A stretch of 64,000 nt of DNA from Thermoleophilum album (GTDB lineage: Bacteria; Actinomycetota; Thermoleophilia; Solirubrobacterales; Thermoleophilaceae). This document shows positions 1 through 30,669 of this stretch, in pieces (within the stretch, counting starts at the first letter, position 1; each line of letters starts with the position of its first letter). The translations under genes and the position numbers were made by a program. The notes under the pieces are model-generated. The model worked only from the letters and a program-made list of their open reading frames with translations, was not told the DNA's origin and searched no databases. The stretch is from the NCBI RefSeq assembly GCF_028867705.1, contig NZ_CP066171.1, positions 186,001 through 250,000 of the forward strand, read 5' to 3'.

Positions 1-1306
1 GAAAGAGGTCGGCGATGCCCGCAGCCTGCGCCTCGGCCGGAAGCTCGGCCCCCAGCTGCGGGGTGAGTGCCTGCCACTGCGAGGTCAGCATTCGGTGGCG
101 CTGCAGATCACGGAACGCGCCGTAGTCGGAGACGATCTCGAAGCGGTAGGAGATCGCCTCGAGTCCGCGCCCCGGGCGGTGACGGCGGTTGCGGCGCTCG
201 CCCGCAAGCTCGCGCAAGAGCGCGGCGCGTTCAGCGCTAGAGAGCGCCCGAACCGTGGCGAGAAGCTCCTCTTCGCTAGCCGCTGACGCTTCGTAGAGAA
301 GCGCGGCGAGAGCCTCCTCCTCGCTGCCACGCACACGCACTAGGCGCACGCTCGCGCCCCCGCCGACCGCCACCTCGCCGGCATCGGCGATACCGAGACG
401 GTGTGCCGCCTGTCGTGCCCGCTCGCGCAGGCCGCGGAGGTAGTCGATCCAGACGCCGCCGCGATCGGGCCGGCGCACGCGCTGAACGAAGCTCGGGATC
501 ACCTTCTCGAGCTCGGCGAGCAGCAGCTCGCCCACTTGCTGCGCCTCGGGGAGCGGGCTCGCAAACAAGCGCAACAAGAGCTGCTCGTAAGCCTGACCCG
601 AAGCGAAGATGCCGACGTGCGAGAGCGACGCCACCGGCAAGATTCCGCGGACGAGGTCGAGCGCCTTGGCGCGCAGCGCGCGGCGCCAAGCTGTGGTGGA
701 CTCGTTATCGGCGCGCGGGAAGTGCTCCTCGGCCCACGCCTCGGCGCGCCGCAGTGCCTCGCTGTAGAGCTCGAACAGGCGATCGAGCGCACGCTCGTAG
801 CCCTCACCGAGCTCGGCGCAGCGCCAGTAGCGGTAGCGCCCGTCGGGCATCGGTCGGTCGTAGGGGATGTAGCGCGTCGACTGCTCGAGATAGGCGGCGA
901 GCCGCCCGCGCTCGAGCACCTTCGTCAGCGCGTTCGACACCCACTCGCAAGCCACATGGGCACCGCCCAGCTGCGCGACCGAGTCGTCGCCGAAGCCCAG
1001 GAAGACGCGCTCGTACAGTTTGCGTGCGCGCTCGCCCTCGCCGGTCGCAAGCACGGCGCGCGCCGCAGCGGGATCGACGTCTTCAGCGAACTCTTCGAGG
1101 AACAGCCGCCGCAGCGTGCCCGGGTAGCGCGAGTAGCGCGCGAACAGCGCGCCCTTGACCGTCTCGGGCAGGTTTCTGAGCGCGAACACGGGCCGGTCGA
1201 GGTTGGTGAAGAACGGTTCGAGCAGCTCGCGCTCGCCCGGGGTGAAGCTCTCGACCGGTGGCGAGAACGCCAAGACCGCTGACGGTGCTGTTGCTCCGGT
1301 CGACAT
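1..1306 (-). CDS. ThyX-family (FAD-dependent thymidylate synthase-like) protein, long two-domain form, 3' end outside window
   Basis: The minus-strand frame is open from an ATG at 1306 to the window edge, giving 435 codons. The protein looks like two ThyX-type halves. Half one (about residues 100-150) ends in a degenerate signature, ERGRLAAYLEQSTRY at 132-146, where classical ThyX has RHRxxSxxxxSxRY. Half two carries RHRMLTSQWQ at 403-412. ThyX makes dTMP from dUMP with FAD, NADPH and methylene-tetrahydrofolate. Because both signatures deviate and the length far exceeds the usual 220-250 residues, a catalytic role is uncertain. No Shine-Dalgarno is seen; a TACGTT box ends 10 nt before the ATG. 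The downstream C-terminus is missing. Confidence 0.72.
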   Translation of the reverse strand, partial: MSTGATAPSAVLAFSPPVESFTPGERELLEPFFTNLDRPVFALRNLPETVKGALFARYSRYPGTLRRLFLEEFAEDVDPAAARAVLATGEGERARKLYERVFLGFGDDSVAQLGGAHVACEWVSNALTKVLERGRLAAYLEQSTRYIPYDRPMPDGRYRYWRCAELGEGYERALDRLFELYSEALRRAEAWAEEHFPRADNESTTAWRRALRAKALDLVRGILPVASLSHVGIFASGQAYEQLLLRLFASPLPEAQQVGELLLAELEKVIPSFVQRVRRPDRGGVWIDYLRGLRERARQAAHRLGIADAGEVAVGGGASVRLVRVRGSEEEALAALLYEASAASEEELLATVRALSSAERAALLRELAGERRNRRHRPGRGLEAISYRFEIVSDYGAFRDLQRHRMLTSQWQALTPQLGAELPAEAQAAGIADLF

Positions 1307-1629
1307 CGAGAGGTCGAACGTAACAGACGCGGCGGGTCGCCCCCGCTCAGCACCAGGAGACGAAACGCACCAGCCGGCCGCGCCAGCAGTGGGTGTGACA
1401 AACGCTACGAACGCTGCGAACCTTCTCGCAAGACGGCTGGCGCCTGGCCGGTGTCCGGCCGATATTTCGAGGAGGGAGGAGCGAACGAGGAGCAAATCTG
1501 TCGTGACCGGACGGGCGGGGTGACCGGACGGATGGGTAACTGAAACGAGGGAGGTGGCGGCCGCAGGCCGTCCGTAGGTGACCGGGGCGGTCGGGCGCTG
1601 GCGGGGACGCCGCCCGGAGGGAACAACGG
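1307..1629. other. Intergenic region between divergent ThyX-like and GGDEF/HD-GYP genes
   Basis: This 323-base gap holds no convincing gene. It contains a perfect GC hairpin at 1446-1460 (GGCCGG / CCGGCC with a 3-nt loop), three copies of GTGACCGG, and a good Shine-Dalgarno GGAGG at 1616-1620 that serves the GTG start at 1630. The length and the hairpins allow a structured leader for the signalling gene, but I recognise no known riboswitch. Confidence 0.4.
1503..1585 (+). repeat. Three direct copies of GTGACCGG
   Basis: GTGACCGGACGG occurs at 1503-1514 and again at 1520-1531, 17 bases apart. A third, shorter copy GTGACCGG lies at 1578-1585. The first two spacings are close to 1.6 helical turns. 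They lie upstream of the GGDEF/HD-GYP gene and could be protein-binding sites, though chance in GC-rich DNA is possible. Confidence 0.4.
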
Positions 1630-3771
1630 GTGCGTCGATCGAAGAGCGGCTTCGACGGTGGGCGTGAGCTGGCCCTTGGCTGGCGAGGAGGGGCCGTGCG
1701 CCTGGGGGCGCTGCGACGTCTCGACCCCACGACCCCGTCTGCAGCTCTCCTCGTGCTCGTCCTCCTCGCCACGGTGTGGTTGCTCCACCTGCTGTCCGGT
1801 ATCGGTGTGGACTGGCTCGATCCGGTGCGGCGCCCACTCCACCTGGGTGTGTACTTGGGGTCGGCGTCCCTGATCGCCTGGAAAGCGTGGCGCGACCCGC
1901 GCGAACGGTTCGCCTGGTCGGTGTTCGCGACTTCGATCGCGCTCGGTGCGACGGGTTGGTTCGTGTATTGGACGTTCGTCGTCGACGATCGACCGATTCC
2001 CTACCCGTCCGTTGCCGACGCGCTGTGGCTAGCTGTTTACGCGTTGAACATCGTCGCGGTTGCCGCGCTGCGGGTTTCGCGCGATGTCTCGCCGCTCACA
2101 CCGGCGATGGTCGTTCGCGCGATCGCTGCTCTTGCCCTGGTTTGGTCGGCAGCCATTGCTGTCTTCTACGAGCCTTTCGGCGCGGCCACCGGCGCGAGCG
2201 GCAGCGCTCTCGCCACCAACTTTGCCTACCTCGTCGGCGATGTCACTGTCGTCGTTCTGGTGCTGTCGGCGTTCGCCCTCGCGCGCTGGCGACCAGGGCC
2301 GGTGTGGCTGTTGATCGGCTGTGCCTACACGTTGCGTCTGGTAGCCGACGTTTTTTGGCTCTACAAGGCGTCGGTTGGAACCTGGGCGGGCGGTGGCGTC
2401 GTCGACTCGTTATGGGTCGCCGGGCCGATCCTGGTGGCGAGCGCTGCGTGGCTCTCGTCGTTCGTGCGCCCGCCGCTCGTCGCCTCGCCGCGCGTGCGCG
2501 CGCGCTCGGCCGCTTCGATCTTCGCCGGGGCTGTGGTCGTGAGCGTCGCGAGCGTGGCCGCCGATCTGCCGAGAGCAGCCGAAGTGCTGGCGGAGGCCGC
2601 AGTGGCAGCGAGCGGCGTAGCGCTCGCTCTCGCCGTACGCGAGGCGAGCTTTGGGATGCGTACACGGCTCGAGGTGCGCAGCTCCGAGCTCGACGCGCTA
2701 ACGGGTTTGCCGACCCACTCGAGTTTCCAACAGCGGCTGGTCGAGCTTGAGACCCAGAGCGCCCGCCGACACTTCAGCCTGCTGATGTGCGACGTGATCG
2801 GCCTTGGAGCGATCAACGCCGAGCTCGGCTACCAGGAGGGCGACCGCCACCTGCGCGCGATCGGCGCCGCCTTGCGCCGCGCCTGCGGCATCGACGCCGA
2901 GCCGTACCGCATCGGCGGTGACCAGTTCGCGGTTCTTGTGCCCGATGCCGGGGTGTGGCAGGGGCTCGTGGTGGCCGAGCGTGTGCTTGCGGCCGCCGAG
3001 GACAGCACCGGTTCCCGCAGCGGCGTGTTGTCGGTCGGGGTCGCCGAGCGGCTGACAGGCGTAGGGCGCGACGAGCTCATAAGACGGGCGCGGGCGGCGC
3101 TCGACGCGGCTCGGCGCGCGCGCCGGCGGATCGTCGCCTGGGCGCCAGGTGTCGAGCACTACGGCACCGACGAGGCGGTCGCTGCGGGTGCTGGCGGCAG
3201 CATGACAACGGCGCTCTCGACAGCGCTGGCGCGCGCCGTCGACGCCAAGGACTCCTACACGCGCTCGCACTGCGAAACCGTGGCGTCGTTGTGTGTGCTC
3301 GTCGCCACCGAGCTCGGTTTCGACGCGGAGCGGATAGCCAAGCTGCGGATCGCGGGTCTCTTGCACGACGTCGGCAAGATCGGGATTCCCGACGCGATCC
3401 TGCACAAACCGGGCCCGCTCACCGACGAGGAGTACGAGGTGATGAAGCAGCACCCGGTGATCGGGCGGATGATCGTGTCGGGCGCTGGTCTCGAAGAAGA
3501 GGCGCTGTGGATCTACCACCACCACGAGCGCATCGACGGCCGCGGTTACCCTGCCGGGCTGGCCGGCGACGAGATCCCCATCGAGTCGCGCATCATCCTT
3601 GTCGCCGACGCCTTCGAGGCGATGACCTCCGACCGTCCCTACCGGCGGGGACGCCCGGCGGTGTTGGCGCTCGAGGAACTGCGCCGCCACGCCGGTACGC
3701 AGTTCGACAGCTCCTGCGTGGAGGCGCTGGCGACGATCGTCGAACGCGGGTCGTTGCCTGCGGCCGCCTAG
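1630..3771 (+). CDS. Membrane-bound diguanylate cyclase-like / HD-GYP phosphodiesterase
   Basis: 713 residues. Residues 38-335 contain about nine hydrophobic segments and form an integral-membrane sensor region. A GGDEF domain follows (about 352-500) whose active-site signature is GGDQF at 429-433, so the fourth position is changed. A full HD-GYP domain lies at about 535-705, with HD at 579-580 (LLHDVGKIGIPD) and HHERIDGRGYP at 631-641. HD-GYP domains hydrolyse cyclic-di-GMP; the altered GGDEF may be regulatory or weakly active. Start: GTG at 1630, with GGAGG nine bases upstream. The gene stands alone between a divergent ThyX-like gene and the convergent nuo operon. Confidence 0.9.
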   Translation: MRRSKSGFDGGRELALGWRGGAVRLGALRRLDPTTPSAALLVLVLLATVWLLHLLSGIGVDWLDPVRRPLHLGVYLGSASLIAWKAWRDPRERFAWSVFATSIALGATGWFVYWTFVVDDRPIPYPSVADALWLAVYALNIVAVAALRVSRDVSPLTPAMVVRAIAALALVWSAAIAVFYEPFGAATGASGSALATNFAYLVGDVTVVVLVLSAFALARWRPGPVWLLIGCAYTLRLVADVFWLYKASVGTWAGGGVVDSLWVAGPILVASAAWLSSFVRPPLVASPRVRARSAASIFAGAVVVSVASVAADLPRAAEVLAEAAVAASGVALALAVREASFGMRTRLEVRSSELDALTGLPTHSSFQQRLVELETQSARRHFSLLMCDVIGLGAINAELGYQEGDRHLRAIGAALRRACGIDAEPYRIGGDQFAVLVPDAGVWQGLVVAERVLAAAEDSTGSRSGVLSVGVAERLTGVGRDELIRRARAALDAARRARRRIVAWAPGVEHYGTDEAVAAGAGGSMTTALSTALARAVDAKDSYTRSHCETVASLCVLVATELGFDAERIAKLRIAGLLHDVGKIGIPDAILHKPGPLTDEEYEVMKQHPVIGRMIVSGAGLEEEALWIYHHHERIDGRGYPAGLAGDEIPIESRIILVADAFEAMTSDRPYRRGRPAVLALEELRRHAGTQFDSSCVEALATIVERGSLPAAA

Positions 3772-25195: not shown

Positions 25196-26746
25196 ATGGT
25201 GGTTCGTCCCGAACAGCTCGCCGCTGCGCTCGATCGTCTCGATCCGCGGCACGTAGAAGTTCTCGAACTGTCGCTGCGGCGGCGCGTTCCCGACGAAGCG
25301 CTGGCGCGCGTGCTTGGCTGCGCGATCAGCGAGGTGGCGCGGCGGCGGGCACTCGCGATCGACGCTCTCGCCGACTCGCTCGCGTTGGCGCGCGGCGAGG
25401 AGCTCGGCGGGGTGCTCGCATCGCTGCTCGAGCGTGACGTCTGGGGCGAGCTCGACAACCTGCGCCGGGCGCGAGACAGCGACGCGAGCAGCGAAAGCAG
25501 CAGCGCTGGTCGCGGTGGCGAAAACGCCGGCGCTGCGTCGGGAACGAGCGACCTCGTCGCCGGAGCTGGCGCGCGCGAGGAGCGCCCGGGCGGGGCAGCG
25601 ACCGGTCGTGACGGTACTGCAGGCAGCCAAGGCGCCGCCAGCGGTGAGTCGGCGGAAGCAGCGCGCGTGGTCCCCTTGCGCCCGCGCGGCGCGACCGGCG
25701 CCGCAGCTGGAGCAGCGGAGGCCGGAGCCGCGCCGACAGCAGGGGCGGGCACGGAGCGGTCAGGCACCGCAGCAGCGGAGCGCTCGGGCACCGCACCGGC
25801 ACCAGGTCCAGGGGCTGCGCCCGGGCTCGCAGCCCGTGTGGGCGCCAGCGGGCGCGCACCCCTCGCATCGCCTACGCCAAGCAACGCGATGAGCACCGGT
25901 TCGAGCGCAAGCGCGCCGGCGGCGGGCACGGGAGAAGTCGCGGCGGGGGGGCTGTGGCGGTTTCTCCCGCAACCCTTGACACTCGCGATCGTCGGCGCGG
26001 TCGCGGTCGTCGCGGCAGCGATCACCGCGCTCGTGGTGGCTGGTGTCCGCTCCGGCGGCTCCGCCGAGCCCGGCAGCGGCCAGGCGCGCCACTTCGTTCC
26101 CGAAGGCGGCGGTGCCCTCGCCCTGCCTTTCCCGTCGGCTCCGGCCGACAGCGCCTGCTACACGACGGTCTCGCTGCGGCGCGCGACGGTGCTTCGCGCG
26201 CGCCCGGGCGGCGCGCCCCTCGCCCGCCTCGCGACCCGCACCGAGTGGGGGTCACCACGCGTGCTCTCGGTGGTCGCCGAGCGCGACGGCTGGCTCGGCG
26301 TCCTGGCGCCCGAGCTTCGCAACGGGCAGGTCGGCTGGGTCGCGCGTTCGGCCGGAACGATCGGCTGCGTCCGCTGGTCGTTGCACGTCGACCTGTCGCG
26401 CCGCCTGCTCTCCGTGCGCCGCTCCGGACGCACGATCCGCCGCGTCCGAGTCGCGATCGGGCGGCCGCAGAACCCCACGCCCACCGGGCGTTTCGCCGTG
26501 ACCGACCGGCTGCGCGTCACCGACCCCGGCTCGCCCTACGGCTGTTGCGTGCTCGCCCTGACCGGCCGGCAACCGCGCTTGCCGCCGGGGTGGCCGGGAG
26601 GGGACCGGCTCGCCATCCACGCGACGACGAACCCGGCGTCGATCGGCCGGGCGGTGAGCCTGGGCTGCTTGCGCGCCGACACCGGCACGATGCGCTGGCT
26701 GTTGCGCGTCGTGCCACTCGGCACGCCTGTATTCATCGCCGCGTGA
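25196..26746 (+). CDS. L,D-transpeptidase (YkuD) with N-terminal sigma-region-4-like helix-turn-helix
   Basis: 516 residues. Residues 9-62 resemble a sigma-70 region 4 / LuxR-type helix-turn-helix (LDPRHVEVLELSLRRRVPDEALARVLG...). Residues 95-250 are a low-complexity Ala/Gly/Ser linker. One transmembrane helix spans about 260-284. An SH3-like domain lies at 325-385. A YkuD domain at 395-515 has catalytic histidine 475 (IHATTNP) and nucleophile cysteine 491 (SLGCLR). YkuD enzymes make 3-3 peptidoglycan cross-links outside the cell, so the protein would span the membrane with a cytoplasmic DNA-binding-like head. It overlaps the ogt start by four bases. Confidence 0.88.
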   Translation: MVVRPEQLAAALDRLDPRHVEVLELSLRRRVPDEALARVLGCAISEVARRRALAIDALADSLALARGEELGGVLASLLERDVWGELDNLRRARDSDASSESSSAGRGGENAGAASGTSDLVAGAGAREERPGGAATGRDGTAGSQGAASGESAEAARVVPLRPRGATGAAAGAAEAGAAPTAGAGTERSGTAAAERSGTAPAPGPGAAPGLAARVGASGRAPLASPTPSNAMSTGSSASAPAAGTGEVAAGGLWRFLPQPLTLAIVGAVAVVAAAITALVVAGVRSGGSAEPGSGQARHFVPEGGGALALPFPSAPADSACYTTVSLRRATVLRARPGGAPLARLATRTEWGSPRVLSVVAERDGWLGVLAPELRNGQVGWVARSAGTIGCVRWSLHVDLSRRLLSVRRSGRTIRRVRVAIGRPQNPTPTGRFAVTDRLRVTDPGSPYGCCVLALTGRQPRLPPGWPGGDRLAIHATTNPASIGRAVSLGCLRADTGTMRWLLRVVPLGTPVFIAA

Positions 26747-27354
26747 CCGGGGTGGCTCGGGGAGTCGCAGCGGGGCGGGCACGGTGGCGAGCGAAGGGCG
26801 CTCGGCGCTGTGCGCACGTCGACACAGCGATCGGGTGTGTCGTCGTCGTGGTGCGCGGCGCCGAGGTCGAGCGCGTCTGGCTGCCGGCGGCGGCGCGCAC
26901 GGCGGCAGTGCAGCGGGCGCTCGCCGGTGTCGACGAGGACAGCGCTCTCGGCGAGCGCGTCGCTCCGGTGTTGCGTGCGCTTGCGGAGGGCGAGACGGTG
27001 CCTCCCACCGCCCTGCCCGCGCTGGCGTGGGAGCGCCTTTCGGCGTTCCAGCGCCTGGTCCTCGCTCGTGTCGCGGCGATCCCGCGCGGTGCCGTCACGA
27101 GCTACGGCGAGCTCGCCCGCGCTGTCGGGCGTCCGCGGGCAGCGCGCGCTGTCGGTCGTGCCGTGGCGGCCAACCCCTTCCCTCTGCTTGTCCCTTGCCA
27201 CCGTGTGGTGCGTGCCGACGGCACGCTCGGCGGTTTCACCGGCGCCGCGGGGCAGATAAAGCGCTGGCTCTTAGAGCGCGAGGGCGCTCTCCCGTCGGCC
27301 GCATCCAGAGCTGCGGACGGGTCGCTTCTCGAGCTCCCGGTCGGTCGCGTCTAG
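26743..27354 (+). CDS. ogt: Methylated-DNA--protein-cysteine methyltransferase
   Basis: 203 residues. Suicide repair of O6-alkylguanine. The active-site PCHRV is in LLVPCHRVVRADGTLGGFTG; the preceding helix-turn-helix SYGELARAVGRPRAARAVGRA is typical. GTG 26743 overlaps the transpeptidase stop (GTGA); GTG 26752 is another possible start. The N-terminal domain is weakly conserved, as in the family. It is part of the thiI-transpeptidase-ogt run. Confidence 0.93.
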   Translation: MTGVARGVAAGRARWRAKGARRCAHVDTAIGCVVVVVRGAEVERVWLPAAARTAAVQRALAGVDEDSALGERVAPVLRALAEGETVPPTALPALAWERLSAFQRLVLARVAAIPRGAVTSYGELARAVGRPRAARAVGRAVAANPFPLLVPCHRVVRADGTLGGFTGAAGQIKRWLLEREGALPSAASRAADGSLLELPVGRV

Positions 27355-29359: not shown

Positions 29360-30433
29360 TCACGCAGCCTCGGCGAGCGCCGCGAGCTCCCGCTTCTCGG
29401 CCAGCTTGCGCAACGCCTCGCGTTCGATCCTCCGCACGCCCTCCGGCGACAGGCCGAGGCGCCTCCCCGTCTCGCGCAGCGGCGTCGGCTCGGCCCCGCC
29501 GATACCGAAGCGCATCTTGATCACCTGCCGCTCGCGTTCGGGCAGCTGTTCGATGGCGCGGCGGACACTCTCGTCGCGGAGGCTGAGTTCGACCTCCTCG
29601 TGGGGCTCGCGCTGGTCGGCGGGGAGGAGGTCACCGAGCTCGGTTTCTCCGTCCTCGCCCACCGGCCGCTCGAGGCTCGTGACGGAGCGGTGAACCTCGC
29701 GCGTCTCGATGATCTGATCGATCGTCAGCCCCGTCTCGCGCGCCAGCTCGAGATCGGTCGGTTCGCGGCCGAGGCGGGCTTGGAGCTCACGCTCGGCACG
29801 GGCGATCTTGCGCTGCCGCTGCCCGATGTGCACGGGCACGCGAATCGTGCGTGCGGCGTTCGCCAAGCCGCGCTGGATCGCCTGGCGGATCCAGAAGGTG
29901 GCGTAGGTAGAGAACTTGTAGCCCCGCCGCCAGTCGAACTTCTCGACCGCTCGGATGAGACCGAGGATGCCTTCCTGGATCAGGTCGAGCAGCGAGAGCT
30001 CCTGGCCCTGGTACTTCTTGGCGATCGAGACGACGAGGCGCAGGTTGGAGTTGATCATCCGCTCTTTCGCCTCGAGGTCGCCCTGCTCGATGCGCTTCGC
30101 GAGCTCGATCTCTTCCTCGGCGGTCAGCAGCGGGTAGCGGCGGATGTCGCGCAAAAACAGCGCCAAGGCGTCGCTCGTGGAGTCGGCGAGCTGGCCGTTC
30201 TCGAACTCCGGGCCGGGCGCGATCTCGCTGCGCCCGCAGTCGTCGGTGGTCTCGAGGCCGAGGGCCGAGAGACGCTCGTGGATGAGCTCGGCCTGTTCCT
30301 CTTCGAGCTCGAGCTCTTCGATTAGCCTGTTGATTTCAGACAGCGGCACGCAGCCCTCTTCCTCACCCTTTTCGACCAGTTCCTGTAGGCGCTGCTCGAC
30401 GACTTCGTCGAGCGTTCCCGACCCGGCTTCCAT
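29360..30433 (-). CDS. Principal-type RNA polymerase sigma factor (RpoD/SigA)
   Basis: 357 residues from ATG 30433. A region-1.1-like N-terminus ([23 protein letters not shown]) is followed by regions 1.2-2.4 ([68 protein letters not shown]), region 3, and region 4.2 ([14 protein letters not shown]). A TACTCT box ends eight bases before this ATG, favouring it over ATG 30469. The full promoter-recognition set indicates the housekeeping factor or a close paralogue. Confidence 0.92.
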
Positions 30434-30441
30434 CACCCGCG

Positions 30442-30447
30442 AGAGTA
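30442..30447 (-). promoter_or_regulatory. Predicted -10 box (TACTCT) of the sigma factor gene
   Basis: Read on the minus strand, TACTCT ends eight bases before ATG 30433. The same spacing is seen at 20091 and 62058. Confidence 0.4.
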
Positions 30448-30669
30448 CCCGCTCCGCGACCACCCACATCGCTTTTGCCGTGACCGGCTGTCCCTGCCGC
30501 GCTGCGCGATGGCGCTAGCGCAACCGCGGTCGCGTGCAGCCGCACGCGGTTCGGCGAAGCGAACGCGACCGCACCGGGAACAACGCGTAGACGCTGCGGG
30601 CATGGCCTCACACTTGTTTCTTGCCCCGCTGGGCGCGGATCTAACGCGCCGCCCAGCGCGGACATGCGG

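Follow-up and report, generated by a model that had tools for sequence, protein, structure and literature searches.

The open reading frame (ORF) 25196-26746 of the window, a 64,000-nucleotide stretch of the Thermoleophilum album genome (2.11 Mb, single contig), encodes a predicted YkuD L,D-transpeptidase with putative 3,3-crosslinking activity that begins with a helix-turn-helix (HTH) head. We interpret the product as a membrane-anchored L,D-transpeptidase in which the head would be a cytoplasmic protein-docking module derived from sigma factor region 4, and place the probability of this reading at roughly 0.5. The head's homology, its mobility and the loss of its -35-reading face are computed; its partner, the direction of any signal and an effect on wall crosslinking are putative. 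Membrane-tethered fusions of the sigma/anti-sigma type are a known kind of protein, and the ORF product is a variant of them. The titles, abstracts and selected passages of the literature consulted contained no description of a YkuD/HTH or sigma-4/membrane fusion.

Architecture and conservation of the transpeptidase

Profiles, hydropathy and Pfam confirmed the layout proposed in the preliminary description, namely a sigma-4-like HTH followed by a linker, one transmembrane helix and YkuD (Table 1). The full YkuD domain claimed there was also recovered, with His475 and Cys491 located as described: PF03734 covers residues 396-514 (E 3e-15, Pfam), and B. subtilis YkuD is among the solved relatives (E 3e-11, PDB), which align over the catalytic region only. 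The ORF protein thus resembles known YkuD L,D-transpeptidases in its catalytic domain but differs at the other end, where most YkuD homologues examined have a short N-terminus and a hydrophobic segment rather than a head. Backing for the proposed SH3-like domain was weaker, with a match to SH3_3 at E 0.11 in the window protein and to SH3_YKFC_2nd at E 0.0014 in homologue L011. A single-sequence structure model of the C-terminal part reached a pLDDT of 30. Pfam searches of the ORF protein found no sigma region 2, no RskA_C or N-terminal anti-sigma domain, and no RodZ-type HTH_25 or DUF4115.

Between head and enzyme, residues 91-255 are 74% A+G+S+T+P, and the linker is hypervariable, with 32% identity and 56 gap columns against its counterpart in genome G001. 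The best 19-residue window (residues 263-281) has a Kyte-Doolittle value of 2.81 and windows starting outside 240-300 do not exceed 1.15, indicating one hydrophobic segment only. Orthologues also have a hydrophobic segment C-terminal to the head.

Table 1. Features of the ORF and its downstream neighbor, with proteins of related genomes that carry the head module
Feature	Position	Strand	Evidence or remarks
Whole ORF	25196-26746	+	516 aa; HTH head, linker, one membrane helix, weak SH3-like segment, YkuD
Sigma-region-4-like HTH core, residues 1-62	25196..25381	+	TIGR02937; profile A3; dN/dS ~0.19
Conserved tail helix of module, residues 63-90	25382..25465	+	Alignment A2; model helix 68-93; dN/dS ~0.19
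Low-complexity Ala/Gly/Ser/Thr/Pro linker, about residues 91-250	25466..25945	+	Composition; poor conservation versus G001
Single membrane helix, about residues 261-283	25976..26044	+	Hydropathy
SH3-like segment, residues 318-392	26147..26371	+	Weak SH3_3 match; 65% identical in G001
Predicted YkuD L,D-transpeptidase catalytic domain, His475 and Cys491	26372..26743	+	PF03734; PDB match
O6-alkylguanine-DNA alkyltransferase (ogt-type) gene	26785..27351	+	PF01035, E 5e-32; frame coordinates, start approximate
L106, L107, L112: RskA_C outer end			Pfam; L106 above cut-off, L107 and L112 below
L120: GT39/PMT glycosyltransferase end			Pfam
L122: GT2 glycosyltransferase end			Pfam
L124: Wzy_C, Wzy-like polymerase; two tandem head copies at N-terminus	629-3187	-	Pfam
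L042: YNCE beta-propeller end			Pfam
L121: pyridine nucleotide oxidoreductase; module in mid-protein			Pfam
L037, L039: tail-anchored stubs			End in membrane helix and short basic tail

A wrong start codon was considered as an explanation for the head and rejected, because orthologues from four other genomes (L003, L005, L006, L009) share the initial Met and keep the first ~88 residues, being 52-76% identical to the head over ~87 residues. Orthologues with the same architecture were thus found, and the preliminary description's concern that they might lack the N-terminal part through a misplaced start did not materialize. Trp83 of the tail helix is invariant among YkuD orthologues (alignment A2). 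Relative to G001, the HTH and tail have a dN/dS of ~0.19, YkuD 0.12, the SH3-like part 0.31 and the linker ~0.5, close to saturation; purifying selection thus acts on the head as the linker drifts. Some close YkuD homologues lack the head. That of G017 has none of it, and that of G002 starts with ~16 residues (MTDREQPAKALGRPDP) that by eye resemble the first 16 of the head and are followed by the membrane helix, so the head can be lost. A bacterium HRbin41 contig (L032) bears the same gene, 97% identical in the best segment, with one in-frame TAG inside it (near 2233) that may reflect an assembly error or a pseudogene.

An ogt-type gene directly follows the YkuD gene in the window and in G001. 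In sister genera, a small extracytoplasmic function (ECF) sigma gene follows it, in three genomes whose YkuD protein has the head (G020, G023, G006) and in two whose protein does not (G017, G002), with an ogt-type gene after the ECF gene in G020, G023, G006 and G017; NCBIfam confirmed the ECF assignment in G020, and the other four were read from sequence. No ECF sigma gene lies beside the window YkuD gene, and a search of its own genome with the sister ECF protein gave a best match of 36% identity at another place. Because ECF genes also follow headless YkuD genes and none is present at the window gene, the neighborhood is no proof of partnership. About 2.6 kb from the ORF, a 369-aa gene at 29360-30469 (- strand) reads by sequence as an RpoD-like sigma factor.

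A sigma region 4 relative carried by many membrane proteins

The preliminary description had called residues 9-62 a sigma-region-4-like HTH, and profile searches bear this out. Residues 1-100 alone match Pfam Sigma70_r4 weakly (E 0.037) and TIGR02937 of NCBIfam at E 9e-4, and the window protein's head stays below the cut-off of every Pfam and NCBIfam model. A profile built from a 14-row head alignment (A3) matched solved structures of FliA (E 1.5e-7) and of ECF sigma-4 domains, together with SigL and SigE, and the related RskA_C fusion L112 passed the curated cut-off of Sigma70_r4_2 (E 3e-7). These profile matches and the conservation of the head rule out a chance HTH. By computation the head is a homologue of sigma region 4, an assignment that is firm only at the level of the family. 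An AlphaFold model of residues 1-94, computed from the single sequence, was helical (pLDDT 79) with the HTH turn merged, and a Foldseek search with this model returned nothing significant. The head shares helices 1-2 and the HTH pattern with sigma-70 region 4 (PF04545, PF08281; TIGR02937) but is N-terminal, lacks an accompanying region 2, has an extra conserved tail helix and leads into a linker and membrane helix.

Searches with head profiles covered the family, order and class as partial samples, with open frames then inspected. In related genomes the module occurs on many membrane proteins, usually at the N-terminus or close to it (Table 1), and several of the matches, such as L106 and L107, lay outside the training alignment. 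In a partial phylum sample (E 1e-7), the matches examined outside the order, a part of the total, were only ordinary sigma factors. Within the order, the head is a mobile module that has been exchanged between many membrane proteins. One 93-residue open frame (L116) consists almost of the module alone, so a free form may exist. Three head plus RskA_C-type genes (L106, L107, L114) are divergent from a gene for a putative DUF4397 surface protein, as judged by sequence, and at L106 and L114 a sortase-like gene comes after the latter.

Many members of the order have proteins, here termed group B, that consist of the sigma-4-like head, a stretch resembling an anti-sigma domain by eye, a membrane helix and an RskA_C-like end; Pfam detected no anti-sigma domain in the stretch. 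L165 (G000:C1:1061143-1061613, - strand), a second module protein of the host genome, is group B-like with RskA_C (Pfam) and adjoins a frame that reads as an NAD synthetase. The group B layout suggests an origin in a sigma/anti-sigma fusion from which sigma region 2 was lost. RskA-type anti-sigma factors (PF10099) have in common with these proteins the RskA_C end. Canonical RskA begins with an anti-sigma domain, as is apparently the case for L164 of the host genome (RskA_C by Pfam, the rest and an ECF-like frame upstream from sequence), whereas module proteins have a sigma-4-like head instead. The ECF48/52/53 and IutY proteins are ECF sigma factors fused to membrane anti-sigma parts (PMC8999054); like the ORF protein, they combine in a single chain a sigma part and, after it, a regulatory part anchored in the membrane, but their sigma part is a full ECF sigma factor, and that of the ORF protein is a region-4-like domain alone, attached to an enzyme.

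The DNA-reading face

Mean core net charge was -2.1 in 47 membrane-linked copies of the module versus +2.8 in 37 C-terminal sigma-4 domains, and mean charge of the recognition helix was -0.1 versus +2.7. Sequences were assigned to one set or the other by position, membrane helix and E-value, and they are related to one another, so that the p value of the charge difference (about 1e-11) overstates independence. A few copies of the module are net basic, such as L085 (+3). Contacts of sigma-E with the -35 element are made by T169, R171, S172, R173, F175 and R176 (PMC6713349). With the alignment anchored on a conserved Val, the corresponding residues of the window protein are E46, A48, R49, R50, A52 and L53; R173 alone is kept and the other five of the six contacts (T169, R171, S172, F175, R176) are replaced. 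Given the acidic family core and these replacements, the module appears to have lost the basic -35-reading face, and with it, probably, DNA reading. In the window protein itself the head is neutral, with a core charge of 0, a recognition helix of +1 and R49-R51 kept. Some nucleic-acid binding is therefore possible, and this head is, as judged from its charge and residues, less clearly non-DNA-binding than the module family.

Proposed role and alternatives

Because YkuD must act outside the cytoplasm, the head would lie inside it. There it would bind a protein, most plausibly a usual partner of sigma region 4: an anti-sigma-type domain, a sigma factor or RNA polymerase. Such binding could position or regulate the envelope enzyme, or report envelope state. 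Since so many further membrane proteins in the order carry the module, it is probably a common unit for protein docking and not a gene switch. Of the roles suggested in the preliminary description, a DNA-binding head is disfavored by the replaced -35 contacts and the net acidic family, and an anti-sigma-like decoy or a module that binds proteins is the better fit; a docking or sigma-mimic role is favored only, with the partner putative. More tentatively, and somewhat against the odds, the proteins may constitute a previously undescribed, order-wide family of DNA-binding-deficient, sigma-4-derived membrane adaptors that connect many envelope enzymes and sensors with a common intracellular partner in transcription or wall synthesis.

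Docking could take more specific forms, each unlikely as a full account. In the least doubtful one, the head would have an anti-sigma domain or RNA polymerase as its target and would thereby tune sigma activity in the manner of PhyR, a soluble response regulator whose sigma-like domain binds NepR and so works through protein binding; the likeness to the membrane-anchored ORF protein would be one of analogy only, between sigma-derived protein-binding domains. Sigma-4 ancestry, a lost DNA face, RskA_C ends on family members and, in five sister genomes, an ECF gene adjacent to that of the enzyme are consistent with this form, as is the binding of class I anti-sigma domains to the DNA-binding region of sigma-4 (PMC7406223), but no such ECF gene adjoins the gene in the window genus, and RskA_C fusions whose surroundings were inspected had no sigma gene beside them. 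Less probable is a scaffold that ties the enzyme to a cytoskeletal or wall-synthesis partner for localization only. The MreB-binding protein RodZ has the same order of HTH, transmembrane helix and outer domain (PMC6052060), and the module does occur on several wall and polysaccharide enzymes; however, by Pfam the HTH class and outer domain of RodZ differ from those of the ORF protein, kinship between its HTH and the sigma-4-class head is unsupported, and the module is also found on an oxidoreductase and beta-propellers.

Departing from docking altogether, the protein could be a membrane-tethered one-component regulator similar to CadC or ToxR, in which the HTH would bind DNA directly and the outer enzyme domain would sense the state of the wall. 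The fold class binds DNA in sigma factors and FixJ/NarL, and the arginines remaining in the recognition helix and the few basic family members are compatible with this function, which we nevertheless rank below both forms of docking as improbable, given the replaced -35 contacts, the net acidic family and the presence of the module on glycosyltransferases and a polymerase, where a role in transcription is less natural. That the head is a dispensable relic lacking present function is very improbable: the remnant start in G002 and the headless protein of G017 would agree with it, but the low dN/dS over the head and its conservation across genera argue otherwise.

The docking module is a defined unit of 90 residues that can be tested in isolation. 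If the reading proposed here is true, sigma factor pieces serving wall and polysaccharide enzymes as membrane-tethered docking heads would represent an unexpected route between the envelope and the transcription machinery.
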